Positions 368 to 17,886 of a stretch of 17,991 nucleotides of DNA are shown here, piece after piece. The notes under the pieces are model-generated. The model searched no databases, was not told the DNA's origin, and saw only the letters and a program-made list of their open reading frames with translations. Each line of letters begins with the position of its first letter. The first letter of the stretch is position 1. The stretch comes from a bacterium (GTDB lineage: Bacteria; AUK180). The DNA lies in assembly GCA_030622125.1 (NCBI GenBank), contig JAUXGM010000028.1:1-17991 (forward strand). Reading direction: 5' to 3'. A program made the position numbers and the translations under genes.

Positions 368-389
368 CTTATAATATAAAGGAATGTTT

Positions 390-587
390 ATGAGTATATT
401 AAAAAAGATTAAGAGTTTTTACAGGGTTGAAAAAGCAGAATCCAATAGGATTACCTGGCCGTCTAAAAAAGAATTGATCAGTCATACAATTTTAATTCTT
501 GTGGTCAGTTTGTTATTGGCTATTGTATTTGCCTTAGCGGATTGGGGCTTTGGGGAATTATTAAAGTTCCTGATAAGGATGTTATAA
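390..587 (+). CDS. secE: Preprotein translocase subunit SecE
   Basis: A 65-residue inner-membrane protein that stabilises SecY in the SecYEG protein-export channel. The conserved amphipathic segment AESNRITWPSKKEL (residues 16-29) carries the family's R-x-T-W-P-(S/T)-(R/K)-x-E signature. One transmembrane helix follows at about residues 33-50. This is the short, single-helix SecE typical of most bacteria, not the three-helix E. coli form. I chose ATG 390 over the in-frame ATG at 384: AAAGGA (378-383) lies 6 bases before 390 but directly abuts 384. nusG follows after 4 bases. Confidence 0.93.
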   Translation: MSILKKIKSFYRVEKAESNRITWPSKKELISHTILILVVSLLLAIVFALADWGFGELLKFLIRML

Positions 588-591
588 TATT

Positions 592-1257
592 ATGAAAGAT
601 GATGAATTAAAAAAGAAACAAGAAGAAGAAGATCTTAAAGAGAAATCAGATCAACAAGAACTTGAAGAATTAAAACAAACATTCCTCCGGATAGACGAGG
701 GATACTCATGGTATTTTTTAAATGTTCTTTCAACACAAGAACAGGTCGTAAAAGAAAGAATAGAAAAATATATTGAGGATAACCATCTTGAAGAAGATAT
801 TTTAAAGATTCTTTTACCCGAGGTAACTTATTATGAGATCAATAAAGGCATAAGAGATGAAAAGAAAAGAAAGCTATTTCCGGCGTATCTGTTGATAAAG
901 ATGAGATCAATTACTAATTCAGAAGATGGGGAAACACAAAATTTGAATATCTGGCACGAAGTACGCAGTATTAATGGAGTTATTGATTTTATCGGGACTA
1001 AAAACGGTCATATTCCATTTCCCGTTTCATCGGCGGAACTTTTGAAAATATTCAATGTAAAAAAAGAGAGTAAAAATAAAAGGACATACCGGTTTTCATC
1101 CGGGAATAAGGTTAAGGTTATAGAGGGACCGTTTAAAGATTTTACGGGAGAAATTGCCGAAGTTGATGAAGATAAACTTCAACTTAAGGTAATGATCTCC
1201 GTTTTCGGTAGACAGACCCCTGTTACCATTGCTTTTGAAGAAGTTGAAAATATATAG
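592..1257 (+). CDS. nusG: Transcription termination/antitermination protein NusG
   Basis: NusG binds the clamp of RNA polymerase, suppresses pausing, and links the polymerase to Rho or to ribosomal protein S10. The 221 residues contain an NGN domain (about 38-152; FPAYLLI at 96-102 corresponds to the usual FPGYVLV) and a C-terminal KOW domain (about 171-221, GNKVKVIEGPFKDFTG). It is longer than the usual roughly 180 residues. The excess is mainly a strongly charged Glu/Lys-rich N-terminal tail (about 1-36), plus a slightly longer loop at 106-119. No strong ribosome-binding site is visible (AAGG at 575-578 is 13 bases away), so translation may be coupled to secE. No later ATG lies within the tail, so the tail appears genuine. 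Confidence 0.95.
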   Translation: MKDDELKKKQEEEDLKEKSDQQELEELKQTFLRIDEGYSWYFLNVLSTQEQVVKERIEKYIEDNHLEEDILKILLPEVTYYEINKGIRDEKKRKLFPAYLLIKMRSITNSEDGETQNLNIWHEVRSINGVIDFIGTKNGHIPFPVSSAELLKIFNVKKESKNKRTYRFSSGNKVKVIEGPFKDFTGEIAEVDEDKLQLKVMISVFGRQTPVTIAFEEVENI

Positions 1258-1266
1258 GAGAAAATT

Positions 1267-1701
1267 ATGGCAAAAAAAGAGGTAGTAGCCCGAATTAAAT
1301 TGCACATTCCAGCCGGAAAGGCTACGCCGGCGCCGCCAATAGGACCGACACTTAGTCCTCATGGTATACCTCTTCCTAAGTTTTGCAATGCGTTTAACGA
1401 CAAAACTAAGGATCAGGCAGGAATGATCATCCCTACAGTTATTACTGTTTATAAGGATAGAAGTTATGATTTTATTTTAAAATCTCCATTGACATCAGTG
1501 CTCTTGAAAAGAGCTGCCGGGATCGTTAAGGCATCCGGTGTCCCGAATAAAGAGAAAATCGGAAAGGTTACAATGGATGATATTAAAAAAATAGCAGAAA
1601 TTAAAATGGTGGATCTCAACGCCGAAGATATTGAAAATGCAATGAAAATCATTATGGGAACTGCAAAAAGCATGGGCATAGAAGTTGTTGAAAAGAAATA
1701 G
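1267..1701 (+). CDS. rplK: 50S ribosomal protein L11
   Basis: The 144-residue L11 binds the GTPase-associated centre of 23S rRNA and supports factor binding and RelA activation. The N-terminal domain (1-70) contains [17 protein letters not shown]. The C-terminal RNA-binding domain contains [15 protein letters not shown] and ends near [14 protein letters not shown]. The length is typical. TAGGAG at 1256-1261 precedes the ATG. The segment after the proline-rich loop reads [12 protein letters not shown] (28-39), where most bacteria have ALGQHGVNIMEF. The gene is otherwise canonical and is followed by rplA after 9 bases. Confidence 0.96.
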
Positions 1702-1710
1702 GAGCACCCG

Positions 1711-2409
1711 ATGGTAAGAAAATCAAAAAGAGAAAAAAAGATCAATGAAATAATTGATATCAGTAGATCATACCCCATTGATGAAGCAATTGAGCTGTTA
1801 AAAAAATCACATTCGGTAAAATTTGATGAAACAGTAGAATATCATGCTCACCTTGGCGTTGACCCAAAATATGCAGATCAAATGGTAAGAGGAACATTAT
1901 CGCTTCCGAACGGCACCGGTAAAACAGTTAAGGTATTGGTTATCACCTCAGGTGAAAATCTTAAAGTTGCCGAAGAATCGGGTGCGGATATTGTAGGTGG
2001 AGAAGAGATCATAGAACGAATAGCAAAAGAGAATTTTCTTGATTTTGATGTTGTTATAGCTTCACCTGATATGATGAGAAATGTTAGTAAGATAGCAAGA
2101 ATTCTCGGACCGAGGGGATTAATGCCGAATCCCAAATTGGGCACTGTAACAAAAAATATTGAAAAAACAGTTAAAGAGTATAAAGCAGGCAAAATTGAAT
2201 ACAAAGTAGATAAATTTGGAAATATACACATTTCTTCCGGAAAGATCTCTTTTGAGCAGGAAAAGATTAAGGGAAATTTTATGGCGATACACAAAGAGAT
2301 AGTAAATGCACGACCAAAAACATTAAAGGGTGTGTATATAAAAAGTTTATTTATAACCTCAACGATGGGTCCCGGTATTAAAATTGATCTTGATGCATTA
2401 AAGTTATAG
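1711..2409 (+). CDS. rplA: 50S ribosomal protein L1
   Basis: The 232-residue L1 protein binds the L1 stalk of 23S rRNA and helps release deacylated tRNA from the E site. Typical blocks are present: SYPIDEAIELLKKSHSVKFDETVE near the N terminus, RGTLSLPNGTGKTVKVLV, ASPDMMRNVSKIARILGPRG with LMPNPKLGTV, and a C-terminal STMGPGIKID. The length is normal. GGAG at 1701-1704, overlapping the rplK stop, is the ribosome-binding site. In E. coli L1 also represses its own operon by binding the rplK leader. A comparable site would lie in the nusG-rplK gap, which is only 9 bases here. Confidence 0.97.
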   Translation: MVRKSKREKKINEIIDISRSYPIDEAIELLKKSHSVKFDETVEYHAHLGVDPKYADQMVRGTLSLPNGTGKTVKVLVITSGENLKVAEESGADIVGGEEIIERIAKENFLDFDVVIASPDMMRNVSKIARILGPRGLMPNPKLGTVTKNIEKTVKEYKAGKIEYKVDKFGNIHISSGKISFEQEKIKGNFMAIHKEIVNARPKTLKGVYIKSLFITSTMGPGIKIDLDALKL

Positions 2410-2418
2410 GGGGTAGTT

Positions 2419-2946
2419 ATGGTTAATAAACAGAAACAGGAAGAGGTAAGGCATATTGAAGAGTTGATCCAAAGCGATTCAAATATATTCTTTGTTGATT
2501 TTACAGGAATTGATGCAAATAATACAGTTGAATTTAGGAGAAAAATAAGGCATTTAGGTGCATCTTATAAGGTTTATAAGAATAGACTCTTTAAGGTGGC
2601 TGCTGCAAAATGTTCTTTTCCGGCAGAAATAGAAGAATTCACAAATCAAACAACGGGATTTATCTTTGTTGGAGAAGATGTAACCGGAGTTTCAAAGACA
2701 TTGAAAGAATGGGCAAATACCTTCAAAACATTCAAAATTAAAGGTGGTTATTATAACAATAGTATTTTGCATGAGAATGACATTTTAGAACTTGCAAAAA
2801 TACCAAGCAAAAATGAATTGATAGGGAAATTACTCTACCTGTTAAATTCACCTCTTACAAGATTGGTCGGTGTTTTAAAAGCCAATCAAAGAGATTTAGT
2901 TAGCGTAGTAAAGCAAATATCAAAAAAAAATAATGGGAGGATATAA
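2419..2946 (+). CDS. rplJ: 50S ribosomal protein L10
   Basis: The 175-residue L10 anchors the L7/L12 dimers to the ribosomal stalk. The N-terminal domain includes [19 protein letters not shown] and the conserved [13 protein letters not shown] stretch. The C-terminal helix (about 135-170) would bind the L12 dimers. A purine-rich GGGGG run at 2409-2413 provides the ribosome-binding site. Only 9 bases separate it from rplA, so the long structured leader on which L10 acts in E. coli cannot be present. The stop TAA overlaps the rplL start by one base (TAATG). Confidence 0.94.
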
Positions 2947-3329
2947 TGGCTGAAATTACAAAAGAAAAAATTATTGAAGCAATCGAGAAGATGACGGTTC
3001 TTGAACTTAATGAATTGGTTAAAGAATTAGAAGACAAATTCGGTGTAAGTGCAATGGCACAGGTAGCAGTAGCCGCAGGTCCCGCCGCCGGTGGTGCAGC
3101 AGAAGAAGAAAAAGAACAAACAGAATTCGATGTGATCCTGAAAGATTCCGGTGAGAAAAAAATACCTGTTATCAAATTGGTAAAAGATATTGCCGGTTTG
3201 GATCTTAAAAAAGCCAAAGAATTGGTTGATGGTGCCCCAAAAGCCGTAAAAGAAAAAGTTTCGAAAGATGAAGCTGAGGAGATCCGAGCAAAATTAGAAG
3301 AAGCCGGTGCATTAGTTGAACTTAAGTAA
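2946..3329 (+). CDS. rplL: 50S ribosomal protein L7/L12
   Basis: The 127-residue acidic stalk protein recruits and stimulates the translational GTPases. An N-terminal dimerisation domain (1-33, [20 protein letters not shown]) is followed by an Ala/Gly/Glu hinge (about 34-57). The C-terminal domain contains [20 protein letters not shown] and ends GALVELK, all typical of L12. A strong GGGAGG at 2935-2940 sits 5 bases before the ATG. This may help the multi-copy L12 be made in excess of L10 despite the TAATG overlap. No clear terminator follows, and the polymerase gene starts 87 bases on. Confidence 0.97.
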
Positions 3330-3403: not shown

Positions 3404-3411
3404 GAGGAAGG
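3404..3411 (+). promoter_or_regulatory. Ribosome-binding site of the fused rpoBC gene
   Basis: GAGGAAGG lies 5 bases before the ATG at 3417. It is the only convincing Shine-Dalgarno sequence for the whole 8.4-kb polymerase frame, because nothing equivalent precedes the RpoC half. The rest of the 87-base gap holds short weak dyads (AGATATATCT at 3381-3390; CTTC/GAAG around 3365-3378) but no clear promoter or terminator. Confidence 0.6.
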
Positions 3412-3416
3412 CTTCA

Positions 3417-6400
3417 ATGATTAATACAAGATTAAATGTGGAAAATTTTTCAGAATATTCTTTTGGAAAATTTAAGGAAAAATTATCCTTAAATAATTTG
3501 CTTGAGAATCAATATAAATACTTCAACCAGTATTTTGCACTTACCGCCAATGACCCGATGATAAAAATAAATGTTGACGAAAGTTATAGGGTAAAAGAGT
3601 TATTCGAAATTTCTCTTAACAAAACCCTTTATGAGGTATTTCCTTTTATGTCGGCAAAAAACGATGTTTTACTCGAGTATGCGGGTTTTTCTTTAGGAAG
3701 ACCAATATATACGGAAGAAGAATGTAGAGATAAAGGATTAACTTATTCAAGACCATTAAGGCTCAAACTGCGCTTGACGAACCTTGAAAAGGATGATATT
3801 TCAGAAGAATTTAAACCTGTAAATTCAAGGGAAGAAGAGATCTTCTTAATGAATTTTCCGATGATAACTCAAAGAGGTACATTCATTATAAACGGGGCGG
3901 AAAGGGTAATAGTCAGCCAATTGCACAGATCACCAGGTGTTACATTTACCGAACAGGAAGGCGTTTTAGATGTTAACGGGCAGAAACTTTTTACCAGCAC
4001 GATCATTCCCTATTATGGTTCATGGCTTGAATTTACTATTGATACTATGCGTGTTTTATATGTTTTGCTTGATAGAAGGAAGAAAATACCAGGAACTATT
4101 TTATTTCGGGCATTTGGAATGTCAACAAGCGATATTTTGCGCGCATTCTATGCGACCAAAAAAGTAAAAGTTAAGGGTTTAAAGAAGGATGCAAATATCC
4201 CACTTATCATCATTGATGATATTATTTCCAAAAAAGGTGATGTTCTTTTTAATGCCGGTTCTGATCTGAACGATTATGATCTCAAATTCCCAACTGATAT
4301 TAAAGAGATTGAGATCGTAGATCCGAATAAAATACAAGAAACAACCGTCATAGATACACTAAAGAAAGATACAACAAAAAACATAGATGAAGCAAGAAAA
4401 ATAATTTACAATAAACTCAGACCGGGATATTCCTATTCAAAATTGATGGCGGATAGTTATTTTGATACGCTTTACTTTAATCCGGAAAAATATTCATTCA
4501 GTTATGTAGGAAGATACCAGATCAATAAGAGACTAAAGCAAGAAAAAAAAGTCGCCTCCGATGTTCTTTATTTAACAAGAACCGATGTGATAAATACGGT
4601 TAAAGAACTGCTTTCAATAAGAGAAAGTTTGGATATCACAGATGATATAGACAACCTTGCCAACAGAAGAGTTAGAATGGTCAATGAACAACTTGATGTT
4701 GTTATTAGATCGTCTCTTTTGAAACAGAAAAAAAATATTTCTGAAAAGCTCAGCAGTAATGATATTGACAATACTTCCGTACTTGAAATTTTTCATACCA
4801 GACATATGGAAGCAAGTATAAATGATTTTTTCGCGAGGAGTCAGCTTTCTCAATTTATGGACGAGATAAATCCACTGGCAACTATGACCCATTTGAGAAG
4901 ATTATCGGCATTGGGTCCGGGTGGCTTAAATCGCAAGCGAGCCGGTTTTAAGGTTAGGGACATTCATCCTACACATTTTGGTAGAATATGTCCGATAGAA
5001 ACTCCCGAAGGACCGAATATCGGATTGATCACTCACCTTGCAACTTATGCAAGAATAAACGAAAAAGGATTTATTGAAACCCCCTTTGCAAGGGTTGTTG
5101 ATAAAAAGATCACTGATGAAATAGTATATATGAGTGCTGATCAGTCTGAAAAACATGTCATTGCCTCAGCAGATGTTAATATTGGAAAGGACAAAAGAAT
5201 CACAGATAAATATGTTTATTGTCACCTAAAATATGATGTTGAATACAGGTCGGCTTCTGAGATTGAATACATAGATGTTTCACCAAAACAAATGGTTTCA
5301 CTTTCCTCATCCCTTATTCCATTTTTAGAGCATGATGACGCAAACAGAGCGCTTATGGGTTCAAACATGCAGAGACAATCTGTTCCTCTTCTTTGTCCGG
5401 AAGCACCGATCGTTCAATCCGGGCTTGAACAACAGGTAGCAAAGGATTCACATTCGGCTATCATTTCCGAATATGACGGTATTGTGGATTATGTGGATGC
5501 CAATAAGGTAATTATCAAACGAAACGATGTAAAAAACGAAAATAAATTTGCAGAGTATAGGATCCAAAAATTTAGAAGAAGTAATCAAGATACTACAAAA
5601 AATCAAGTTCCCATCGTAAGTATTGGTCAAAAGGTTAAAAATGGTGATTTTTTAACAGATGGAATGTCTATTTCTCACGGGCGTCTTGCATTGGGTAAGA
5701 ACCTAAAAGTCGCATTTATGCCATGGAATGGTTATAATTTTGAAGATGCTATTATTATTTCCGACCGTGTTGTAAAAGATGATGTTTTAACTTCTGTACA
5801 TGTTATTGAATCAAAGGTAGATGCGATCATCACAAAATTGGGAAGGGAAGAGATAACAGCAGATATTCCCAATATGGATCCAAATAAAATAAGGTATCTT
5901 GATGAAAGAGGAATTATACGCGTTGGAACAAAGATCGGACCGGGTGACCTCCTTGTAGGAAAGATCACACCACAGGGTGAAACAGAACTTTCAGGGGAAG
6001 ACAAACTCCTTTCTATAATATTTGGAAAAAAGGCAAGTAATGTTAAAAATACATCACTTTATGCCGATGAGAAGACTTATGGTGTTGTTACCGCAGTAAG
6101 GGTATTTTCAAGAAAAAAAGAAGAAGAAGATGATCTAAGCAAAAAAGAGATCGAATGGAAGATAAGGCGGCTTAAAGAAGCTATAAATCGAGAGATCACA
6201 GAAAAAACCGAAGAATATAATGAAAAATTATATCAGAAGATAAAAGGAAAGGACTTACCCACCGCTGTAAAAATTGATAATGGAAAAATTGAAAAGGGAA
6301 CAAAAATAAGCAAGAAAATATTTACAACCATGCTAAATAACAGTGTTTCGCTAATAGATATTTTTATTGATGATTTTGTTTTAACACAAGATCTTTCTTT

Positions 6401-9400
6401 GATAAAAGAAAAATTCCAATTTGAAAAGGAATCTATTCTAAATGCGTATGAAAAAGAAAAAAATTCTATCTTAAAAACAGATGATCTGCCGTCAGGTGTT
6501 ATTAAGAGAGTTGTTGTTTACATAGCTCAGATCAGAAAGGTTGAAGTTGGCGATAAACTTGCCGGTAGGCATGGGAATAAGGGTGTTATTTCCAAAATTG
6601 CCCCGCAAGAAGATATGCCGATAATGGCTGATGGCACCCCTGTGGATGTTGTATTGAATCCGTTGGGTGTTCCTTCACGTATGAATATCGGGCAGATATA
6701 TGAGACCTTACTTGGACTCGTTGGGGAACAACTTAATACAAAATTTATTACTCCGATATTTGATGGTGCTCAGCAATCCGATATAAAAAAGTATCTGGAT
6801 AAAATAAGCGGAAATGAATTTGGAAAGATCTTTTTGAGAGATGGGATTTCAGGCGAACGTTTTGACCAACCGGTTACTGTTGGCGTTATGTATATAATGA
6901 AATTGAATCATCTCGGTAGAGATAAATTGCATGCAAGAGCAACAGGTCCATATTCACTCGTTACCCAACAGCCGCTTGGCGGAAAGGCACAAAAAGGCGG
7001 ACAACGTCTTGGAGAAATGGAAGTTTGGGCACTTGAAGCTTATGGTGCTGCTTATACTTTACAAGAAATGTTCACATTTAAATCGGATGATGTAATAGGT
7101 AGAAATAAACTTCATGAAGCCATTATTAAAGATAAATTTCCAATGACTCCGAACATTCCCGAATCGTTCAATGTATTGGTGAAGGAAATGAAAACAATGG
7201 GATTTGATGTCATAAAAGAGATCGATCCTCAAAATCGTAAGATCCAAAGTATGAAAATTCAACTTGCATCTTATGAAAAAATGATTGAATGGGCTACAAG
7301 AAAAAGTGGTTATGTCGGTGAAGTTAAGAGAGCCGATACCATAAATTATAAGAGTTTTAAACCGGAAAAGGAAGGATTGTTTTGCGAAAAGATTTTTGGA
7401 CCCGTAAAAGATTGGAAATGTTCCTGCGGCAAATATAAAGGCAGAAAATATGCCGGTCAAGTTTGTGAAAGATGTGGTGTGGAAATCACTGAAAAAAATG
7501 TTAGAAGAAGGCACATGGGAATAATAAAATTGGTTACACCGGTTGCTAATATTCTTTATTTTCAAGGTGGTATTGCTCCTCTGATCGCTTCTATTCTAAA
7601 ACTTAAAACAAAGCAGATAGAAAATGTTGTTTATTATGAATCCTACCTCGTTACTAATGTAGCATCAAGATTTAAAAAGGTAAATAAGTGGGATGTGATC
7701 AATGAGATAGAGTATAGAAATTTATTGAACAAATATGGAACGGAAAAATTTACCGCACTCACGGGTGCCGGTGCCATTTATGAAAGATTAAGCGATTTAG
7801 ATATTGATGCAAGGGTAAAGGAATATAGAGAAAAGGTAAAGAAATTTAAAGATGAAAAAAAGATAAAAGGTAGCGATCTAAAAGAATTAAGAAGTTTACT
7901 TTTATTGGAAAAGCTCAAGGTATCGGGCAATAAACCGGAGTGGATCGTATGGAAGGCGATACCCGTATTACCACCTGATCTTAGACCATTGGTTCCTCTT
8001 GAGGGTTCAAAGTTTGCTTCTGCTGATCTGAATGATCTTTACAGAAGAGTATTGAATAGAAATAATCGTTTAAAAAAATTCCTTGAGGACGATGTTCCCG
8101 ATATTATTTTAAAGAACGAGAAAAGAATGCTTCAAGAATCAGTTGATGTTTTAATTGATAATGGTAGAAGAGGAAATGCAATAGTCGGCTCCAACGGCAG
8201 TCCGTTAAAATCACTTGCCGAACTTCTTAGAAGCAAACAGGGAAGATTTAGACAGAATCTTCTTGGGAAAAGAGTTGATTTTTCCGGCAGAGCGGTTATA
8301 GTGATTAACCCTAAAATGAAGCTTTCGGAATGTGGGCTTCCTATAAAAATGGGAAGAGAGCTTTTCAAAACATTTATTGAAAGAGAAAAAAACAGAAGAA
8401 GTAAAGAATTAATTACTACTGACGGAGCAATCGTAAAAGAGGTAGATCAGGTTGAGATCGAGAAGATGCTTGAAAATGAGTATGATAAAAACCTTATTCT
8501 TTTGAATCGTGCACCCACTCTTCATAGAATGAGTATACAGGCATTCAAGCCAAGATTGGTACAGGGTACGGCTATCCAAATGCATCCGCTTGCTTGTGCA
8601 GCATTCAATGCTGACTTTGATGGCGATCAGATGGGCGTTCATCTTCCATTAACTAATATTGCACAGCTTGAATCAAGAATGTTAATGTGGTCAATAAACA
8701 ATATTCTTTCCCCCTCAAATGGTGAGCCGATTGTAGTTCCATCGCAGGACATGATATTAGGTCTTTATTATTTAACCGCTGAAAAGAAATTCTCAGGTGT
8801 TGCAAAAAGAAAATTTTACTCGATTGATGATCTCGCTTATCAATATGAATATGAAAGAATCAATCAGGAGAAAGTAAAAAACAGATTGAGCCTACATATC
8901 CCTGTTGAACTATTCTATAAAGAAAAATGGTTGAAAACGACACTTGGGAGAGTCATACTTAATGCCGGTTTAAATAAAAAATTACCATTTTTTAATAAAA
9001 CTATTAACAAGAAAAATATCAAGCAATTTATTGCCTCTGCCTATGATATTCTGAGTAATGATGAAATGGTAGTGTTTTTAGATTATCTTAAAGAAGTTGG
9101 ATTTTTCTTTTCAACTCGTGGCGGCATTACCTTCGGTTTGTGGGATATTGTTATTCCCGAGGAAAAGAAAGCCGGATTAGAAAATGCACAAAAAGAGGTT
9201 AATAGACTTAATTCAAGTTATATAAAACATGAGATCACAGATGTTGAAAGATATAAGAATATAATTAATATTTGGACTACCATCGATGAAAAATTGAAAA
9301 ATGTTATGATAAAAAAAATGGAAAAAGGTAACTTGAAAGATATTAATACTCATTTTAATCCTATATACATTATGCTTGATTCCGGTGCACGAGGTTCTCA

Positions 9401-11795
9401 TACACAGATCAAACAAATTGCTTCATTAAGGGGATTAATGGAGAATCCATCCGGCGATATTATTGAAATTCCGATCAAGTCCAATTTTATGGAAGGTCTT
9501 AATGTTCTGGAATTCTTTATATCGGCACACGGTGCAAGAAAGGGACTTGCAGATACTGCATTGAAAACATCTGAGTCAGGATATCTTACCAGACGACTTG
9601 TTGATGTTTCCCACAATATTATTGTAAAAGAACATGATTGCGGCGCTACACTTGGGATAGAGGTTAGTGCTTTGAATAATCCACCATTTGTAAAAGAGGG
9701 CTTAGCATCAAGAATTTACGGTAGAATAGCATTTGAAGATATTATCAATACAAAAACAGGAGAGAAAATAATCGGTCAGAATGAAATGATAACAGAAGAG
9801 ATCGCCGTAAAGATAGAGAATGCCGGAATCGAGATCGTCAAGGTCAGATCTCCGTTAACCTGTCAAGCGGGAAAAGGGATTTGCCAATTATGCTACGGTA
9901 TGGATCTATCAAAGAAAAAACTGGTTGAGATGGGGACACCTGTTGGCATTATTGCTGCGCAATCAATTGGTGAACCGGGTACACAGCTTACAATGAGAAC
10001 GTTCCATATTGGGGGTGTTACTTCAAAGAAAAGTGAAGAAGAAACGATCCGTGCTGAGCTGCTACTTCTGCAAAAAGGTGAAGCATATAAGCAATTTGAG
10101 ATCGAAAAAAAGCTTTTGGATGCAAATTTCAAAAGTGTAAAGAAGATTACAAATAAATATCAATATAAGATCGAGAAATTTAAATTGTATGTAATGTCTC
10201 CCAACTATCCTAACAAGAGATTGACGATAATTTTTAATGAACAAGGTATTCTTACGGAAATCAAGGATAATAATGGGAAAAAATATGATGAAATTTCTTT
10301 GATACAGGGTAAATTAAAGTATAGATTGCAATACAATAAAGAACCGAACTCAGAGGGGAAACACCTAAATCTTTCAAGGGACGGTGAACTTGTTATCCTT
10401 TCCGATATTAAAGAAGTAGTAACTATTGATAAAGATGCACATGGTTCAAATATTATTTACAAAACTGCAGCCGAAGATATCGTTGACCCAAAAACCAAAG
10501 ACTTAATATGCCCTTCGGGACACATTATTGACGGGAATAGAACTTCATTGATACTTACTTCGAAGCTTGTGAATATCAAGGTATTCAGAGAACTTGAAAG
10601 ATATGATACGCCTTATGGTTCCGAATTATTAATTCCAAATAGAAAAATGTTGAAAAAGAAAACTCCTATTGCAATTAAATCACTTTATTATGAACCGATT
10701 ATTGCAGAGGAAAATGGAAAGGTAGAATTTCATAATATCGATTTCAGTCCGGATAGCGTTAAAAGTAATGATAAAATAGTTATTCAACCTGCAATTGTTG
10801 CAACAAGTCGACTTCATCCGAGGATTATTATTAATGGCGTAGAACATCAGATAGAAGTTTCAAGAATTGTTAAAGGTATCGGTAAGGGTGAAAAAGAGGT
10901 GCATACCACTCACATTAGCGTCCAGAAAGGTGACACTGTAAAAAGAGGTGATATTCTTGGAAAGATCGTTATCAAAAAAAATGAAAAGACGGACATTACG
11001 GGTGGTTTAATGAAGGTTGAGGAACTTTTTGAAGCAAGGCACAGAAAATCAACTGAAAATGCGATTCTTACGGAAATTACAGGAACTGTTGAAATATTCC
11101 AGGACAAGACAAAAAAGATTAGAGGAACCTATCCTGTTTATGTAAAGATAAATGCTCCAACCGGAGGCGGCAAACAGTATAAGATCAATTACAATCAACA
11201 GATCAAGGTAAAAGATGGTGATAGAGTAGAACAGGGTGATCCGTTAACTACCGGTATTACGAATCTTTTTGATTTACTAAGGATTAAGGGTGCTAACTAT
11301 GTTAGAAGGTACATTGTTGATGAAGTAAAATCAATATACAAACTTCAGGGAATAGGTATTCACGACAAACATATCGAGATCATTGTTAGTAAAATGCTTT
11401 CTAAGGTTAAGATAACAAAAATGGGTGATTCGGAATTTCTCCCGGAACAAATAGTAAGCAAGAAGGAATTTGCAAAAGAAGTGGCAAGATTAGAAAGCGA
11501 GGGAAAAGAGAAACCGGAATCCGAACAAACCCTTCTTGGTATAAGTAAGGTTGCATTACAGACAGATAGTTGGCTTTCCTCTGCTTCATTCCAGGAAACT
11601 ATTCGAGTACTTTCTATGGCAGCTATCGAAGGGAAAGTTGACAATATAGAAGGTCTTAAAGAGAATATTATTATTGGGAATTTGATTCCCGCAGGTACCG
11701 GTTTCAGGGAAGAAAAAGTTAAAGTTGCAGATAGCATGAAAATAATGCGTCAGGAATTGGAACATTTTTCCTGGAAAGATTCACAGGGAGAATAA
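3417..11795 (+). CDS. rpoBC: Fused DNA-directed RNA polymerase subunits beta and beta' (RpoB-RpoC)
   Basis: A single 2792-codon frame joins the two large catalytic subunits of RNA polymerase. Residues 1 to about 1270 are RpoB. The rifampicin-pocket segment is at 477-499, with the E. coli-equivalent residues S512, Q513, D516, H526, R529 and S531 all wild type. A charged insertion lies at about 898-1021, in the place of E. coli beta-i9. GDKLAGRHGNKGVIS is at 1045-1059, and the beta C-terminal clamp block ends near 1270. Residues from about 1279 are RpoC: zinc site C1335/C1337/C1350/C1353, magnesium-binding NADFDGDQM at 1731-1739 (D1733, D1735, D1737), second zinc site C2075/C2149/C2156/C2159, and trigger loop at 2192-2200 with H2197. 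A trigger-loop insertion of about 325 residues follows (about 2201-2525), then LFEAR at 2537-2541, and an ending at SWKDSQGE. No stop or gap lies between the halves. Both halves keep their key residues, so the gene looks functional. Confidence 0.97.
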   Translation: MINTRLNVENFSEYSFGKFKEKLSLNNLLENQYKYFNQYFALTANDPMIKINVDESYRVKELFEISLNKTLYEVFPFMSAKNDVLLEYAGFSLGRPIYTEEECRDKGLTYSRPLRLKLRLTNLEKDDISEEFKPVNSREEEIFLMNFPMITQRGTFIINGAERVIVSQLHRSPGVTFTEQEGVLDVNGQKLFTSTIIPYYGSWLEFTIDTMRVLYVLLDRRKKIPGTILFRAFGMSTSDILRAFYATKKVKVKGLKKDANIPLIIIDDIISKKGDVLFNAGSDLNDYDLKFPTDIKEIEIVDPNKIQETTVIDTLKKDTTKNIDEARKIIYNKLRPGYSYSKLMADSYFDTLYFNPEKYSFSYVGRYQINKRLKQEKKVASDVLYLTRTDVINTVKELLSIRESLDITDDIDNLANRRVRMVNEQLDVVIRSSLLKQKKNISEKLSSNDIDNTSVLEIFHTRHMEASINDFFARSQLSQFMDEINPLATMTHLRRLSALGPGGLNRKRAGFKVRDIHPTHFGRICPIETPEGPNIGLITHLATYARINEKGFIETPFARVVDKKITDEIVYMSADQSEKHVIASADVNIGKDKRITDKYVYCHLKYDVEYRSASEIEYIDVSPKQMVSLSSSLIPFLEHDDANRALMGSNMQRQSVPLLCPEAPIVQSGLEQQVAKDSHSAIISEYDGIVDYVDANKVIIKRNDVKNENKFAEYRIQKFRRSNQDTTKNQVPIVSIGQKVKNGDFLTDGMSISHGRLALGKNLKVAFMPWNGYNFEDAIIISDRVVKDDVLTSVHVIESKVDAIITKLGREEITADIPNMDPNKIRYLDERGIIRVGTKIGPGDLLVGKITPQGETELSGEDKLLSIIFGKKASNVKNTSLYADEKTYGVVTAVRVFSRKKEEEDDLSKKEIEWKIRRLKEAINREITEKTEEYNEKLYQKIKGKDLPTAVKIDNGKIEKGTKISKKIFTTMLNNSVSLIDIFIDDFVLTQDLSLIKEKFQFEKESILNAYEKEKNSILKTDDLPSGVIKRVVVYIAQIRKVEVGDKLAGRHGNKGVISKIAPQEDMPIMADGTPVDVVLNPLGVPSRMNIGQIYETLLGLVGEQLNTKFITPIFDGAQQSDIKKYLDKISGNEFGKIFLRDGISGERFDQPVTVGVMYIMKLNHLGRDKLHARATGPYSLVTQQPLGGKAQKGGQRLGEMEVWALEAYGAAYTLQEMFTFKSDDVIGRNKLHEAIIKDKFPMTPNIPESFNVLVKEMKTMGFDVIKEIDPQNRKIQSMKIQLASYEKMIEWATRKSGYVGEVKRADTINYKSFKPEKEGLFCEKIFGPVKDWKCSCGKYKGRKYAGQVCERCGVEITEKNVRRRHMGIIKLVTPVANILYFQGGIAPLIASILKLKTKQIENVVYYESYLVTNVASRFKKVNKWDVINEIEYRNLLNKYGTEKFTALTGAGAIYERLSDLDIDARVKEYREKVKKFKDEKKIKGSDLKELRSLLLLEKLKVSGNKPEWIVWKAIPVLPPDLRPLVPLEGSKFASADLNDLYRRVLNRNNRLKKFLEDDVPDIILKNEKRMLQESVDVLIDNGRRGNAIVGSNGSPLKSLAELLRSKQGRFRQNLLGKRVDFSGRAVIVINPKMKLSECGLPIKMGRELFKTFIEREKNRRSKELITTDGAIVKEVDQVEIEKMLENEYDKNLILLNRAPTLHRMSIQAFKPRLVQGTAIQMHPLACAAFNADFDGDQMGVHLPLTNIAQLESRMLMWSINNILSPSNGEPIVVPSQDMILGLYYLTAEKKFSGVAKRKFYSIDDLAYQYEYERINQEKVKNRLSLHIPVELFYKEKWLKTTLGRVILNAGLNKKLPFFNKTINKKNIKQFIASAYDILSNDEMVVFLDYLKEVGFFFSTRGGITFGLWDIVIPEEKKAGLENAQKEVNRLNSSYIKHEITDVERYKNIINIWTTIDEKLKNVMIKKMEKGNLKDINTHFNPIYIMLDSGARGSHTQIKQIASLRGLMENPSGDIIEIPIKSNFMEGLNVLEFFISAHGARKGLADTALKTSESGYLTRRLVDVSHNIIVKEHDCGATLGIEVSALNNPPFVKEGLASRIYGRIAFEDIINTKTGEKIIGQNEMITEEIAVKIENAGIEIVKVRSPLTCQAGKGICQLCYGMDLSKKKLVEMGTPVGIIAAQSIGEPGTQLTMRTFHIGGVTSKKSEEETIRAELLLLQKGEAYKQFEIEKKLLDANFKSVKKITNKYQYKIEKFKLYVMSPNYPNKRLTIIFNEQGILTEIKDNNGKKYDEISLIQGKLKYRLQYNKEPNSEGKHLNLSRDGELVILSDIKEVVTIDKDAHGSNIIYKTAAEDIVDPKTKDLICPSGHIIDGNRTSLILTSKLVNIKVFRELERYDTPYGSELLIPNRKMLKKKTPIAIKSLYYEPIIAEENGKVEFHNIDFSPDSVKSNDKIVIQPAIVATSRLHPRIIINGVEHQIEVSRIVKGIGKGEKEVHTTHISVQKGDTVKRGDILGKIVIKKNEKTDITGGLMKVEELFEARHRKSTENAILTEITGTVEIFQDKTKKIRGTYPVYVKINAPTGGGKQYKINYNQQIKVKDGDRVEQGDPLTTGITNLFDLLRIKGANYVRRYIVDEVKSIYKLQGIGIHDKHIEIIVSKMLSKVKITKMGDSEFLPEQIVSKKEFAKEVARLESEGKEKPESEQTLLGISKVALQTDSWLSSASFQETIRVLSMAAIEGKVDNIEGLKENIIIGNLIPAGTGFREEKVKVADSMKIMRQELEHFSWKDSQGE

Positions 11796-11815
11796 AAGAG
11801 CACTGTTCTCTTTTT
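11794..11815. terminator. Weak bidirectional terminator between rpoBC and the convergent gene
   Basis: AAAAGAG (11794-11800) and CTCTTTT (11808-11814) form a 7-bp stem with a 7-base loop. T-runs lie downstream on the plus strand, and the complementary A-run gives a U-tract on the minus strand. It sits exactly between two convergent genes. Only two pairs are G-C, so efficiency is uncertain. Confidence 0.45.
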
Positions 11816-11819
11816 GCAA

Positions 11820-12176
11820 TTATTTTTTTGAAAATTCTATTGCTTTTGGTTTATTAATGGTAAATTTTTCTTCATACTCCAATTTTTTGTATTCATTATA
11901 AATAATCCTTATTATGTATTCTTTGTATATTTTCTTGGAGTAAAAACCAATTTCTATCAGGTTCATATCTCTTTCAACAGGAATTTCATTTAATAGGACA
12001 TTAATATTATTTTCCCTTCCGTATATCAATATGGTTTGTCCCATATTGATATCATTCAGATGCAAAGAGAGATAAACTCCCTTATTACAATAATCATAAT
12101 CAAAACTTTTAATGATCTTTGCACCGCTTCCAAAAACCAACGCAATAATTAAGATTAAAATGGCTTTCTTTTTCAT
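11820..12176 (-). CDS. Small exported or membrane-anchored protein of unknown function
   Basis: A 118-residue protein that I do not recognise. It starts MKKKAILILIIALVFGSGAK, a lysine-rich start plus hydrophobic core typical of a Sec signal peptide or N-terminal anchor (about residues 1-20). The remainder is polar and rich in Tyr, Ile, Lys and Glu, with an alternating pattern that could be a small beta-rich domain. It contains one cysteine and no evident catalytic motif. I chose ATG 12176 over the in-frame GTG at 12185, because GAGGTG on the minus strand lies about 6 bases before the ATG and overlaps the GTG. The gene converges on rpoBC with a 24-base gap. The signal peptide and ribosome-binding site make it likely a real gene, but expression is unproven. 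Confidence 0.7.
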   Translation of the reverse strand: MKKKAILILIIALVFGSGAKIIKSFDYDYCNKGVYLSLHLNDINMGQTILIYGRENNINVLLNEIPVERDMNLIEIGFYSKKIYKEYIIRIIYNEYKKLEYEEKFTINKPKAIEFSKK

Positions 12177-12296: not shown

Positions 12297-12324
12297 TTGA
12301 CTTTTTTTATTTTTTTGATATAAT
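12297..12324 (+). promoter_or_regulatory. Sigma-70-type promoter for the TonB receptor leader
   Basis: TTGACT (-35, 12297-12302) and a perfect TATAAT (-10, 12319-12324) are separated by 16 bases of T-rich DNA. Transcription would start near 12331, giving an untranslated leader of about 229 bases before the receptor gene. This is the best promoter match I found in the window. Confidence 0.75.
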
Positions 12325-12330
12325 CAAAGC

Positions 12331-12540
12331 ATCCCGAGCTGTATCGCCTAAGGCGGAGCATTCTTTATGAGATTATTACACCTTTGATGTAAATCAAAGG
12401 CTCATAATGACTTTGTCACTTTTGATCTGGAACTTTTTTTGACCCGGTTATACAGCCGATAGGGGTAAGTAAGGAAACTTCTTGCCCTCCCGTGCTTGGA
12501 AAGGGATAAATATATTTTATCAAGAATTCCTTTCCTTTTT
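12331..12540 (+). promoter_or_regulatory. Structured 5' leader RNA, candidate riboswitch or attenuator, class unknown
   Basis: From the predicted start at about 12331 the RNA can form nested stems. A closing helix pairs GCTGTAT (12338-12344) with ATACAGC (12450-12456). Inside it are a short hairpin CGCC-TAA-GGCG (12345-12355) and a long hairpin. The long hairpin pairs TTATGAG (12365-12371) with CTCATAA (12401-12407), followed by CCTTTGAT / ATCAAAGG (12381-12400) capped by a GTAA tetraloop. Next is a 10-bp stem with one bulge and a GAAA tetraloop (12463-12487). A terminator-like hairpin (12498-12540) ends the leader just before the receptor gene. I do not find the conserved cobalamin, TPP, FMN, SAM, c-di-GMP or T-box sequences. 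The structure is seen in sequence by hand folding; the regulatory role is inferred. Confidence 0.6.
12498..12540 (+). terminator. Intrinsic terminator-like hairpin at the end of the leader
   Basis: GGAAAGG (12498-12504) pairs with CCTTTCC (12529-12535), followed at once by TTTTT (12536-12540). Within it GATAAA (12505-12510) pairs with TTTATC (12516-12521) around a 5-base loop, leaving a 7-base bulge on the 3' side. The hairpin ends 19 bases before the receptor ATG and upstream of its GGAGG ribosome-binding site. It could therefore switch off the gene by premature termination. Confidence 0.6.
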
Positions 12541-12559: not shown

Positions 12560-14494
12560 ATGAAAAGGCTAAGTGTAGTTTTGTCGGTCATTATCATCTT
12601 TATTCAGATGATTTTTGCAGGAGAAGAGGTATCCGGTATTGAACCGAAGAAGATTTATACCACAGAAACGATCATTATTAAGGATACGAAATGGAAAAAT
12701 GTTGAGGTTATTACAAAAAAAGAAATTGAAAAATCCAATTTTCAAACCGTTTCGGAGGTATTATCTTCCATACCAGGTGTATATTTCTCTATTGGAATGA
12801 AGGGGGAAACCTCTATCTATATAAGAGGGGTAAGCAAATCAAAGGTAAAGGTCTTGATAGATGGCGTTTCAGTCAATGATATCTATTATGATACTATTGA
12901 TGTCTCCGTAATTTCCATCGAATCCATTGAACAGATTGAGGTATATAAAGGTCTATCTGCTTCGTCTTACGGCAGTAATACAATGGGTGGTGTTGTAAAT
13001 ATTGTTACATCATCTCCCCAAAGTCCGATATCCGTTCTTGTTCAGGGTGATAATTTTAACGGTGGCAAACTTTCCGGAACTTTTTCATTTTCAAAAGGGA
13101 TTTTTACTCTATCAGGCGGTTTTTCCGAGGTTTACGGTGATGGATATAAACTTTCAAATGACTTTGCTGCCGATATTAATGAAGACGGCAGTACAAGAGA
13201 AAACAGTGCTTTCAGTAAAAAAAATCTAATTCTCAAAAACGGATTAGATTTTGATGCTAATAATTTTTTACATTTTGGTGCAACTATTATTGATAACTAT
13301 AAAGAACTCCCATATAATATTAGTGCAACGAAAAGTAAGCCGTCAAAGGTTTTTAAATCACCAAGATATTGGAGATTTCCGATCTGGAAAGAAAAAATAT
13401 TCACAATTGACGGTCAAAAATTAATAAATGATCTTATGAAATTTTCTTTAAAAACAAACTATATCAAGATAGACAATACACTTGATATGGCGGTAGATAG
13501 CGAATTTGAAGAGATGGGGGAAGAGGATACATTCGACGATTCCGGTTTAAATATAAATACGGCACTTGAAGGGATGAAATACCTGAAATATAAGATCGGT
13601 TACAATTACGAAGAGAAACATCATAACAAGACCGAGAAAAATTATATCTACGATGAAATAATTAATGAAACTATGTCTTCCGCATATAATAATTTTTTTC
13701 TTTCACTTGAAAAAAGATTTTCTTCTTTCCTAATAAATCTTCAAACGAGCTATAACGGGTATGAGGCAAATGACTTTAAGATGAATAAAATGATCTATAT
13801 AAGCAAATTAGAAGCAGAGTTAGTAAAAAAACTCACTATTCAGACACAATTCGGAACGAAGATCCATTTCCCGACCCTGAAACAGATGAATGATATTATT
13901 GCTGACAATTTAAAACCGGAGGAATCGACGGAATTTAATATCAACTTAAATTATAGAACAGGCATTATTGATCTGACGCTCGGCTATTTTTCAAACAGTA
14001 TTGACAATCTTATCAATAGAGATAAAAAGGGAGAGCCGTATTACAATATCGGAAAATCACTCATTTCGGGTGGAGAGGTAACGGTGAAATTGAAATATTG
14101 GAGATTTAGCTTAACTTCAAATGGTGAATTGATCAGCGGAGTAAATAAATCGGAAACAGGTTCTCCCGATGATTATATTGATGATCTTCCCTACATTCCC
14201 GAATATCGTTTATACAACAGTTTAAATATTAATATTTTGAAATCATTGGATATTGCCTTAGAAGCGAATTTTATCGGTAAAACCTATGAATATACTTACG
14301 ATCCATCTTCTCACAGCAATATAAAAACTGAAATTCCGAGTTACGATTTGATGAATATTAATGCAAATTTCCGGATAAATAAAATGTTCAAACTCTATGC
14401 AAGGGTTAATAATCTTTTTGATACAAATTACTATACCGAAACGGATTTCCCCTGTCCCGGCAGGCAAATTATTTTGGGTGTAAGGATGGAATAA
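12560..14494 (+). CDS. TonB-dependent outer-membrane receptor (BtuB/CirA-like)
   Basis: A 644-residue receptor that would import a ligand across the outer membrane using energy from TonB-ExbB-ExbD. I chose ATG 12560 over the in-frame upstream ATG at 12482, which lies inside the leader. GGAGG (12551-12555) precedes 12560, and the protein then begins with a clear signal peptide (MKRLSVVLSVIIIFIQMIFA, 1-20). A possible TonB box is TTETIII (34-40). The plug domain spans about 47-152, with the conserved TVSEVLSSIPGV, IYIRGV, VKVLIDGVSVND and YGSNTMGGVVNIVT. The rest is beta-barrel, with the usual RVNNLFDTNYY near the end. It ends GVRME, without the usual terminal aromatic residue. Size is close to BtuB (about 600), but the substrate (cobamide, iron chelate or other) cannot be read from the sequence. 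Confidence 0.92.
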   Translation: MKRLSVVLSVIIIFIQMIFAGEEVSGIEPKKIYTTETIIIKDTKWKNVEVITKKEIEKSNFQTVSEVLSSIPGVYFSIGMKGETSIYIRGVSKSKVKVLIDGVSVNDIYYDTIDVSVISIESIEQIEVYKGLSASSYGSNTMGGVVNIVTSSPQSPISVLVQGDNFNGGKLSGTFSFSKGIFTLSGGFSEVYGDGYKLSNDFAADINEDGSTRENSAFSKKNLILKNGLDFDANNFLHFGATIIDNYKELPYNISATKSKPSKVFKSPRYWRFPIWKEKIFTIDGQKLINDLMKFSLKTNYIKIDNTLDMAVDSEFEEMGEEDTFDDSGLNINTALEGMKYLKYKIGYNYEEKHHNKTEKNYIYDEIINETMSSAYNNFFLSLEKRFSSFLINLQTSYNGYEANDFKMNKMIYISKLEAELVKKLTIQTQFGTKIHFPTLKQMNDIIADNLKPEESTEFNINLNYRTGIIDLTLGYFSNSIDNLINRDKKGEPYYNIGKSLISGGEVTVKLKYWRFSLTSNGELISGVNKSETGSPDDYIDDLPYIPEYRLYNSLNINILKSLDIALEANFIGKTYEYTYDPSSHSNIKTEIPSYDLMNINANFRINKMFKLYARVNNLFDTNYYTETDFPCPGRQIILGVRME

Positions 14495-14612: not shown

Positions 14613-14915
14613 ATGAGGATTCAAGCACATCCGATATTGGAATTTAAAAAGAAGCGGAAAATACCGTTTTTCTTTAATGGTAGAAGGCTTTACGGTTATG
14701 AAGGTGATACAATAGCTGCTGCACTTCACGATAATGGTATAAATGTATATAGGATCACATCAAAGGGTAGAAAAAGAGGTTTTTTCTGTGCTATTGGTAA
14801 GTGTTCATCATGCTTAATGGTCGTTGACGATATTCCCAATATCAAAACCTGTATAACTCCTTTAAAAAGTGGAATGAAAGTGGAAACTCAAAAAGGAAAA
14901 GGAGTTTACAAATGA
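14613..14915 (+). CDS. [2Fe-2S] ferredoxin-like subunit of a flavoprotein dehydrogenase (HcnA-like)
   Basis: A 100-residue plant-ferredoxin-fold protein of the Fer2_4 type. It carries an N-terminal beta-grasp segment (FFFNGRRLYGYEGDTIAAAL, 19-38) and cluster ligands C59, C64, C67 and C80 in the motif C-x4-C-x2-C-x12-C (FFCAIGKCSSCLMVVDD). This pattern matches the small subunit of hydrogen cyanide synthase (HcnA) and of heteromeric amino-acid dehydrogenases, where it relays electrons between flavin subunits. Its TGA overlaps the next ATG (ATGA), so the two are probably translationally coupled and made in equal amounts. Confidence 0.88.
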   Translation: MRIQAHPILEFKKKRKIPFFFNGRRLYGYEGDTIAAALHDNGINVYRITSKGRKRGFFCAIGKCSSCLMVVDDIPNIKTCITPLKSGMKVETQKGKGVYK

Positions 14916-16744
14916 TTAAAACAGATGTATTGATAATTGGTGGTGGTCCTGCCGGTCTGGGAGCAGCCATAGAAACGACAAAAAGGAAATTAAAAACACT
15001 TATTATTGAAGAAAATCCGCTATACGGCGGGCAATTAATTAAACAAACACATAAATTTTTCGGATCATCCTCCCATTTTGCAGGGACACGAGGTATTCTG
15101 ATACATGAAAAGCTGCATAAAGAAATAGAAAGCAAATATTTGACAATGAAGACCAATCACTCTGTAATTGCGGTTTATGACGATAATATCATAGGCATTC
15201 ATGACAAAAACAAAAATAAATTTTTGAAAGTAGATGCAAAAAAGGTAATACTTGCAACGGGGGCATCGGAAAAGACCATTCCCTTTAAAAATAATGATCT
15301 TCCAGGCATTTACGGCGCCGGCGGTGTTCAAACATTGATGAATGTCAACGGTGTATTACCCGGGAAAAAGATATTGATGATCGGCGCGGGAAATATAGGT
15401 CTCATTGTTTCATATCAATTAATCCAAGCCGGTGCGGAAGTTGTGGGCATCATTGAAGCAATGTCAAAGCAAGGCGGATATTTGGTCCATTTGGATAAGG
15501 TAAAAAGACTTGGTGTTCCGCTTTATTTCAATCACACTATTGTTGAGGCACATGGTGATGATAAGGTAGAAAAAGCAGTGATCGCAAAAGTTGATAAAAA
15601 TTGGAATATCATAGATGGAACTCAAAAAACAGTGGAATGTGATACCATTTGTCTGGCAGTGGGTTTGACCCCGACTTCTGAACTTTTGTGGCAAGCCGGC
15701 GTTGAAATGGAATTTAATCCTGTGCTGGGTGGGTATATTCCCAAATATAATGAGTATATGGAGACAAATAAGAAAAAATTTTTTGTAGCAGGCGATGCTG
15801 CTGGTATCGGAGAAGCAACTTCTGCCATTATTGAAGGTCGGATTGCCGGTATTTCCGCTGCAAAGGCACTTAATGCAGAAAAAAATGCTAAGAAATTTCA
15901 TAAACCATTGATCGATTATATAAATAATTTAAGGGACGGTTCCACGGGAATTAAAGTAAAAAAAGCGAAATTTGGCCTATGGGGTAAGGAACTTAAAGAT
16001 ATTAAGGAAGTAAAAATAAGACCCAATCAAAAGGGAAAGATAAAAAAAGACAGGAAACAGCCCTATGTGGTAATAGAATGTACAGAGGATATACCCTGTA
16101 ATCCATGTGAAGCATCGTGTCCCTTCGGTGCTATTGATATAGGTAAAAGAATCGTCAATATTCCCGTTGTGGATCTGAATAAATGTACCGGTTGTCTTTC
16201 ATGTATCTCATCATGTCCCGGTCTGGCAATTTTCGGTATTACGGAAAATGTACAAAAGGGAAAGGTCGTGATCTCCATCCCTTATGAATTATACCCTCTG
16301 CCTGAAAAGGGAAATAGCATCTGGGCGGTTGATAAAAACGGTCAAATTCTTTCTGAGGCGGAAGTTTACAGGGTAAGAAAAAATAAAAATAAAACAAATA
16401 TTGTTTCTATTATCGTTGATGAAAAATATAAAGATTCCGTAAGACATTTTTACCCGCAGAGCGAGGGTGATGTTATAATTTGCAGGTGTAATGATATTAC
16501 AGCAAAAGAGATCAATGATGCTATTGATGACGGTTATACGGATTTTGAAGAATTGAAAAGATATTTGCGGGTTACCATGGGACCATGTCAGGGCAGAGGT
16601 TGCCGACATTTGGTCATGGGAATGATAAGAGCAAAAACAGGGAAAGATATATCCAAAGGATCTACCGGTACGAGAAGACCTCCGGAATCCTCTTTACCGT
16701 TTAAAGCCATTGTAAAAGAGAATAAAAAAAGGAGCAAAGAATGA
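14912..16744 (+). CDS. FAD/iron-sulfur electron-transfer subunit of an amine or amino-acid dehydrogenase
   Basis: A 610-residue multidomain oxidoreductase. The FAD-binding Rossmann motif IIGGGPAGLG is at 8-17. The second dinucleotide motif MIGAGNIGL is at 156-164, and FVAGDAAGIGEA (291-302) closes the FAD site, as in the pyridine-nucleotide-disulfide oxidoreductase fold. A two-cluster ferredoxin follows, with ligands C390/C396/C399/C403 and C425/C428/C431/C435. A BFD-like [2Fe-2S] domain completes it, with C524, C526, C559 and C564. HcnB (about 460 residues) lacks the two-cluster ferredoxin; in archaeal dye-linked proline dehydrogenases comparable parts are, as I recall, on separate subunits. 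It overlaps both neighbours by ATGA. I infer that it passes electrons from the DAO-type subunit to an acceptor. Whether NAD(P) binds is not clear. Confidence 0.88.
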   Translation: MIKTDVLIIGGGPAGLGAAIETTKRKLKTLIIEENPLYGGQLIKQTHKFFGSSSHFAGTRGILIHEKLHKEIESKYLTMKTNHSVIAVYDDNIIGIHDKNKNKFLKVDAKKVILATGASEKTIPFKNNDLPGIYGAGGVQTLMNVNGVLPGKKILMIGAGNIGLIVSYQLIQAGAEVVGIIEAMSKQGGYLVHLDKVKRLGVPLYFNHTIVEAHGDDKVEKAVIAKVDKNWNIIDGTQKTVECDTICLAVGLTPTSELLWQAGVEMEFNPVLGGYIPKYNEYMETNKKKFFVAGDAAGIGEATSAIIEGRIAGISAAKALNAEKNAKKFHKPLIDYINNLRDGSTGIKVKKAKFGLWGKELKDIKEVKIRPNQKGKIKKDRKQPYVVIECTEDIPCNPCEASCPFGAIDIGKRIVNIPVVDLNKCTGCLSCISSCPGLAIFGITENVQKGKVVISIPYELYPLPEKGNSIWAVDKNGQILSEAEVYRVRKNKNKTNIVSIIVDEKYKDSVRHFYPQSEGDVIICRCNDITAKEINDAIDDGYTDFEELKRYLRVTMGPCQGRGCRHLVMGMIRAKTGKDISKGSTGTRRPPESSLPFKAIVKENKKRSKE

Positions 16745-17886
16745 AAAAGTCCTATGAAGTGGGGATAATCGGTGGAGGTATCATCGGTGCTACCATTGCA
16801 TATTATCTTGCAAAAATGGGAATGAAAGATATTGTACTCCTTGACAAAAGTTATTATACGAGCGGTTCTACGGGAAGATGCGGCGGTGGTATAAGACAGC
16901 AATGGTCAACTCCTGCAAATGTCAAGCTCGGTATCCGCTCAGTAAAACTTTTTGAACAATATGAGAAGGAATTGGATTTTAATTTCGATTATGTCCAAAA
17001 GGGTTATTTAATATTGGCATTTACAGATGATGAGGTAAGGGATTTTAAGAAAAATGTCAAAATGCAAAGATCCTTGGGACTCAATGTCAATTTTATTTCA
17101 AAAAAAGAAGCACAAAAGATAGTGCCATTTTTAAATACAAATGATATATTAGGTGCAACATATTGCCCAACCGATGGTTTGGGAAGTCCTTTCCTGTCAA
17201 CATTCGGATATTTGAAAAGAGTAAGAGAAATGGGCGTTGAAACCTATAATTATACGGAAGTTACTGCAATAAAAAGAAATAAAGAGAAATATGATCTGAA
17301 AACATCTAAGGGAAATGTTTCGGTAAAATATGTGGTAAATGCGGCAGGTCCCTGGGCAAAGGATATTTCGAAAATGCTTGATTATGATATTCCAGTCAAT
17401 CCCGAAAGGCATCAGATACTTGTTACAGAACCCCTTGAAAGAATGGTCGATCCAATGGTCATAGATTTTCTTCATGGATTTTACGGTTCGCAGGAAAAGA
17501 ACGGTGGTTTTGTCATGGGAGAAGGTGATCCAACGGAGCCGGAATCATTCAAGATCTCTTCCAATTGGAAATTTCTGGAATCCATATCAAAAAAATTCAC
17601 ATATCTTTTTCCAAAATTTAAGGATGTTAAGATATTGAGACAGTGGGCGGGTTCTTATGTAGTTTCACCGGATGCCCAACCTATTTTGGGACCTATTTCA
17701 AAAGAGGATAAGAACTTCTTTTTAGCAGTGGGATATTCCGGTCACGGTTTTATGCTTGCGCCTGCAACGGGTGAAGCGATTGCAGAATGGATATTATACG
17801 GAAAATCAAAAACCACTGATATTTCACATCTCACAATGGAAAGGATCGAAAAAGGATTATTCGAGCAAGAACATAATGTGGTGTGA
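16741..17886 (+). CDS. DAO-family FAD-dependent oxidoreductase, catalytic subunit (HcnC / proline dehydrogenase beta-like)
   Basis: A 381-residue flavoprotein of the glycine oxidase / sarcosine oxidase / D-amino-acid oxidase family. The N-terminal FAD motif IIGGGIIGATIAYYL gives G11, G13 and G16, with an acidic residue, D35, at the end of strand 2 (IVLLDKS). The STGRCGGGIRQQW block (43-55) is typical of the proline/sarcosine dehydrogenase branch. NAAGPWA (200-206) and the C-terminal FAD-contact blocks SPDAQPILG (309-317) and GYSGHGFMLAPATGE (331-345) complete the fold. As the third gene of a coupled operon with [2Fe-2S] and FAD/Fe-S partners, it is probably the substrate-oxidising subunit of a membrane- or ferredoxin-linked dehydrogenase. 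L-proline, sarcosine, hydroxyproline or another imino/amino acid are possible substrates; none can be chosen from sequence alone. Confidence 0.88.
   Translation: MKKSYEVGIIGGGIIGATIAYYLAKMGMKDIVLLDKSYYTSGSTGRCGGGIRQQWSTPANVKLGIRSVKLFEQYEKELDFNFDYVQKGYLILAFTDDEVRDFKKNVKMQRSLGLNVNFISKKEAQKIVPFLNTNDILGATYCPTDGLGSPFLSTFGYLKRVREMGVETYNYTEVTAIKRNKEKYDLKTSKGNVSVKYVVNAAGPWAKDISKMLDYDIPVNPERHQILVTEPLERMVDPMVIDFLHGFYGSQEKNGGFVMGEGDPTEPESFKISSNWKFLESISKKFTYLFPKFKDVKILRQWAGSYVVSPDAQPILGPISKEDKNFFLAVGYSGHGFMLAPATGEAIAEWILYGKSKTTDISHLTMERIEKGLFEQEHNVV

Follow-up and report, generated by a model that had tools for sequence, protein, structure and literature searches.

A fused rpoBC gene in a bacterium of the AUK180 lineage and the recurrence of beta–beta' fusions across bacterial phyla

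The stretch of DNA analyzed here, hereafter the window, comprises 17,991 nucleotides (positions 1 to 17,991 of contig JAUXGM010000028.1, assembly GCA_030622125.1) from a bacterium of the GTDB lineage AUK180. Its principal feature is a single long gene encoding both large subunits of RNA polymerase, RpoB (beta) and RpoC (beta'), as one polypeptide (Table 1). The region upstream, which also holds a tRNA-Trp gene, has the usual bacterial gene order. Just past the rpoBC stop codon lie a possible terminator-like hairpin and a T-rich stretch (11785-11830, forward strand); the folding of this segment is no better than that of shuffled sequence (z -0.5).

Table 1. Coordinates of the fused gene, its parts and its upstream neighbors in the window
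Feature	Position	Strand	Details
secE-nusG-rplK-rplA-rplJ-rplL	384..3329	+	Upstream of the fused gene; order as in relatives
Shine-Dalgarno-like GAGGAAGG	3404..3411	+	Five bases ahead of the fused start codon; read directly
Fused rpoBC gene	3417..11795	+	ATG start; 2792 aa; no internal stop; coordinates include the stop codon
RpoB (beta) part	3453..7211	+	Residues 13-1265; TIGR02013
Predicted beta hairpin	7203..7265	+	Last beta strand (1263-1269) pairs with first beta' strand (1276-1283); turn DPQNRK
Junction IKEIDPQNRKIQS	7212..7250 (about 7206-7251)	+	Residues 1266-1278; stop-free
RpoC (beta') part	7251..11717	+	Residues 1279-2767; TIGR02386

The open reading frame is precisely as the first-pass annotation had it in its bounds, its length and its freedom from stops, and the predicted mass of 317 kDa agrees with the single product of about 320 kDa anticipated there. 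Its beta part belongs to the RpoB family (TIGR02013, 1465.9 bits against a cut-off of 801.15, spanning positions 5-1236 of the 1238 in the model) and its beta' part to the RpoC family (TIGR02386, 1414.3 bits against 963.5, positions 2-1146 of 1147); hence, in the sequence of the window both complete subunits lie in a single stop-free frame. A frame of 2792 codons that matches both families from end to end cannot have originated by chance. Eleven Rpb2/Rpb1 domains from Pfam follow each other in the correct order along the protein, with a twelfth match, to Peptidase_M23, falling below the cut-off. The earlier claim that the core catalytic motifs are present in both halves was upheld for the motifs sought, namely the rif cluster, RHGNKG, NADFDGD, the trigger loop GEPGTQLTMRTFH and the beta' zinc finger (C-x-C..C-x2-C), bar two: the patterns used for switch 2 and for the second zinc site were too strict and gave no match in the fused protein; KQGRFRQNLLGKRVDFSGR and CQAGKGICQLCYG are readable in the translation. 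A second copy of rpoBC was not found in the window's genome, which is 96% complete at 2.08 Mb in 192 contigs.

The stretch of the fused protein across the beta-beta' junction reads FDVIKEIDPQNRKIQSMK. A sequencing or assembly error that deleted the stop codon between two ordinary genes might, in principle, produce such a frame: the window's assembly is fragmented (192 contigs), and in many unfused genomes rpoB and rpoC are in-frame and one stop apart, such that a single error could fuse them. Related genomes speak strongly against this. The sample of the window's phylum comprises seven genomes, of which five have contigs that cross the junction, the window's own (G000) along with G001, G003, G004 and G005; the remaining two stand outside the junction count, as G006 yields no more than a fragment from the N-terminus of RpoB and G002 yields nothing. 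The search for fused entries in related genomes that the first-pass annotation had proposed as a check thus found all five readable junctions, from four genera and two families, fused without a stop. The four relatives show the fusion as in the window, with 52-78% identity and the operon order kept. Their linkers, together with that of the window (IKEIDPQNRKIQS, IREIDPKTKKIAN, IKDVDLKSKERKIKS and DLIKDKSDNRKFSG), differ in sequence and yet stay at 13-15 residues and free of stops, and no start codon for an internal rpoC is conserved at the junction among the relatives. The ATG at 7251, considered as such an internal start, was discarded: it is not an ATG in any relative and lacks an evident ribosome-binding site. 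Varied linkers of constant length with no conserved start are the pattern of an old, retained fusion, and the agreement of all five genomes across four genera and two families is a strong argument against an error, which we regard as extremely improbable and, given the four fused relatives, as refuted for practical purposes.

What joins the two subunits is short. The NYR motif of beta' lies 44 residues past the end of beta in the window, and across the whole set of fused proteins this spacing is 36-61. In genomes with separate subunits, where the start codons are guesses, the beta and beta' tails taken together have a median length of 50. Thus, the fusion adds no length, its tether not exceeding that of the tails it replaces. 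Residue 1273 of the window's protein aligns with residue 14 of E. coli beta', and the N-terminal tail of beta' is largely gone in the window's phylum. AlphaFold2 predicted a hairpin across the junction in both of its runs (473 aa with 27 alignment rows, mean pLDDT 58; 230 aa with 48 rows, mean pLDDT 60), with a local pLDDT of about 62-75 and low overall confidence. None of the 60 best solved structures contains a naturally fused enzyme chain. In bacterial RNA polymerase the C-terminus of beta adjoins the N-terminus of beta', so that a tether as short as this would suffice; further, engineered beta-beta' fusions function in E. coli. Being charged and perhaps exposed, the linker would be compatible with post-translational cleavage of the polypeptide into separate beta and beta' chains. 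However, it is just 13-15 residues long and is predicted to be a hairpin, and neither an extra domain nor a long insert was seen at the window's junction; we therefore consider cleavage very unlikely. Beyond the junction, the beta' N-terminus has a six-residue insert (window 7299-7316, residues 1295-1300; WATRKSGYVGEV as against W-S-x-GEV), which is restricted to the window's family (G000, G001 and G003), being absent from G005 and the other aligned fused proteins.

Fused rpoBC genes have been described as independent events in Helicobacter and Wolinella (PMC1557499) and in Wolbachia (PMC7483510). The fused proteins of both have the architecture seen in the window; that of Helicobacter and Wolinella is likewise RpoB followed by RpoC in a single chain of about 2800-2900 aa. 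With the fusion on record in these lineages, the window's gene might have been inherited or acquired from the Campylobacterota (Helicobacter type) or from the Wolbachia lineage. Fused RpoBC is covered by two NCBIfam models, and the window's whole protein falls far below the cut-offs of both, scoring 2268.5 bits against 5372 for the Helicobacter-type NF007172 (PRK09603) and 2067.5 against 4632 for the Wolbachia-type NF011417 (PRK14844); in comparison, the positive control for the former, the Helicobacter-type G047, reached 5737 bits. In the trees described below, G047 groups with the unfused G102 and G240 (100/96 and 99/95), on a branch apart from the window's phylum, and forcing the two together is rejected (AU p = 0.032 and 0.018). 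The two also differ at the junction: the tether of G047 has 27 aa as against 13 in the window, and a 56-residue insert in beta precedes it. The Wolbachia type is set apart by its NF011417 score, with the trees containing no Wolbachia sequence. The best matches to the window among named genomes are from Bacteroidota only, at 45-50% identity. On the model scores and, for the Helicobacter type, the trees, descent from either known lineage is highly improbable, and the first-pass annotation's suggestion of a fusion independent of the Helicobacter lineage is borne out by both the model score and the tree tests.

The fusion extends well beyond these cases. Of 386 genomes surveyed across bacterial families, 364 had a match, and at least 20 of the latter are fused, at least 15 of them outside the window's phylum; 17 show a single stop-free match over the junction, and G044, G223 and G352, each of which gave two matches, are fused on a reading of the DNA. 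Others with a large open frame (G016, G023, G026, G030 and more) were rejected as fusions, their DNA showing separate genes with in-frame stops. Searches of whole phyla found every junction-spanning contig fused in four of them: 30/30 in the phylum of G130, 7/7 in that of G212, 4/4 in that of G081 and 2/2 in that of G044. The fusions of G130, G212, G081, G044, G383, G119 and G100 share the architecture of the window's, with some tethers equally short and, across the junction region, 46-53% identity with the window's sequence, and in G044, G130 and G212 the fused gene occupies the same place in the operon. The G130 phylum, with small genomes and a sample (35) bigger than that of the window's phylum, has tethers down to 5-11 residues on the scale that gives the window 13 (loci L163, L168, L244-L249, L251, L252 and L255-L273). 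Our open-access search found no literature on fused rpoBC outside Helicobacter, Wolinella and Wolbachia, which is not proof of its absence. The first-pass annotation had called the arrangement rare and a possible clade marker. It gave Helicobacter/Wolinella and Wolbachia as the established cases, but the fusion is not confined to these lineages; and as other small phyla are fused at every readable junction, it cannot by itself mark the window's clade and is a poor marker for any single one.

In many genomes without the fusion, a single stop codon separates rpoB from an in-frame rpoC, so the step to fusion is a short one. Separate in-frame genes with exactly one intervening stop are found, for example, at L111 (G015), L169 (G102), L173 (G135) and L176 (G136), and this arrangement of the sequence likely represents a pre-fusion state.

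The number of origins was addressed with trees of the C-terminal part of RpoB and the N-terminal part of RpoC (about 850-860 columns). The window's phylum forms one clade at 100/100. The AU test rejects a single origin for the sampled fusions as a whole (p = 1.5e-6), and not one of 200 bootstrap trees has the fusion arising once. The best trees have six changes between the fused and separate states, with the well-supported branches alone forcing three to five, though such counts do not show the direction of change, the groups were defined once the first tree had been seen, and the deep branches are poorly resolved. The union of the window's phylum with the group comprising the fused G212, G383, G071, G100, G342, G119 and G081 is likewise rejected (p = 0.0019). 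The G130 phylum is a different matter: it might share with the window's phylum an ancestor in which a single event took place, such that the fusion would predate the window's phylum. The two were neighbors in the first tree (65/73), joining them costs 3.5 log units (p-AU 0.345), and the junctions are short in both. Yet, the final tree leaves them apart, both sit on long branches, which can attract each other, the deep branches are unresolved and their linkers are unlike in sequence. Weighing these points, we hold an event shared with the G130 phylum to be possible but the less probable course. Thus, the proposal of an independent fusion stands relative to the Helicobacter type and does not carry over with the same force to the G130 phylum, given the p-AU of 0.345.

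Judged from the genome sequences, the window presents a further instance of an architecture already known: within its phylum fused rpoBC is fixed among the members that can be read, and it is recurrent, being fixed in several lineages. We propose that the window's gene is in all probability a genuine old fusion, and that its product would be an ordinary polymerase in which the C-terminus of beta is tethered to the N-terminus of beta'. Briefly, we envisage the following course. The two genes would have been adjacent in the usual rplKAJL-rpoBC operon, and in the ancestor of the phylum the stop codon and the short intergenic and start region between them would have been lost, with both large subunits being made thereafter as one polypeptide. 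Together with alpha2, omega and sigma, this would fold into a core enzyme of the ordinary kind, the tether probably being the turn of the predicted hairpin that joins the last strand of beta to the first of beta'. In effect, beta and beta' would probably be held to a 1:1 ratio and their assembly coupled, with no new activity.

The recurrence of the fusion is of greater interest than the single case of the window. Its fixation in several phyla, taken together with the rejection of a single origin, points to a repeated evolutionary path, the cause of which can be compared between lineages; the candidates for such a comparison are: (i) assembly; (ii) stoichiometry; (iii) loss of intergenic space. 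We lean towards the view that several whole candidate phyla, the window's among them, have long had beta-beta' fusion as a fixed trait, with several origins and apparently no loss in the sampled genomes, in which case a single chain would be the normal state for a sizeable part of uncultured diversity. On the practical side, annotation pipelines may mistake fused rpoBC genes for errors.

The remainder of the window holds two further features, both on the forward strand. At 12320-12522 lies a complete riboswitch for the molybdenum/tungsten cofactor (RF01055, 57.5 bits against a gathering score of 36), which has a TATAAT box at 12319-12324 and is directly followed by the gene of a TonB-dependent receptor (likely ATG at 12560, with GGAGG ahead of it); this arrangement suggests an outer-membrane receptor regulated by the molybdenum or tungsten cofactor. 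Further downstream, three overlapping or abutting genes (14613-17886) encode a Fer2_4 ferredoxin, a SoxA-like FAD/Fe-S protein with Fer2_BFD and 4Fe-4S parts, and a DAO-family oxidoreductase, by their domain matches a putative sarcosine-oxidase or HcnABC-like amine/amino-acid dehydrogenase set.
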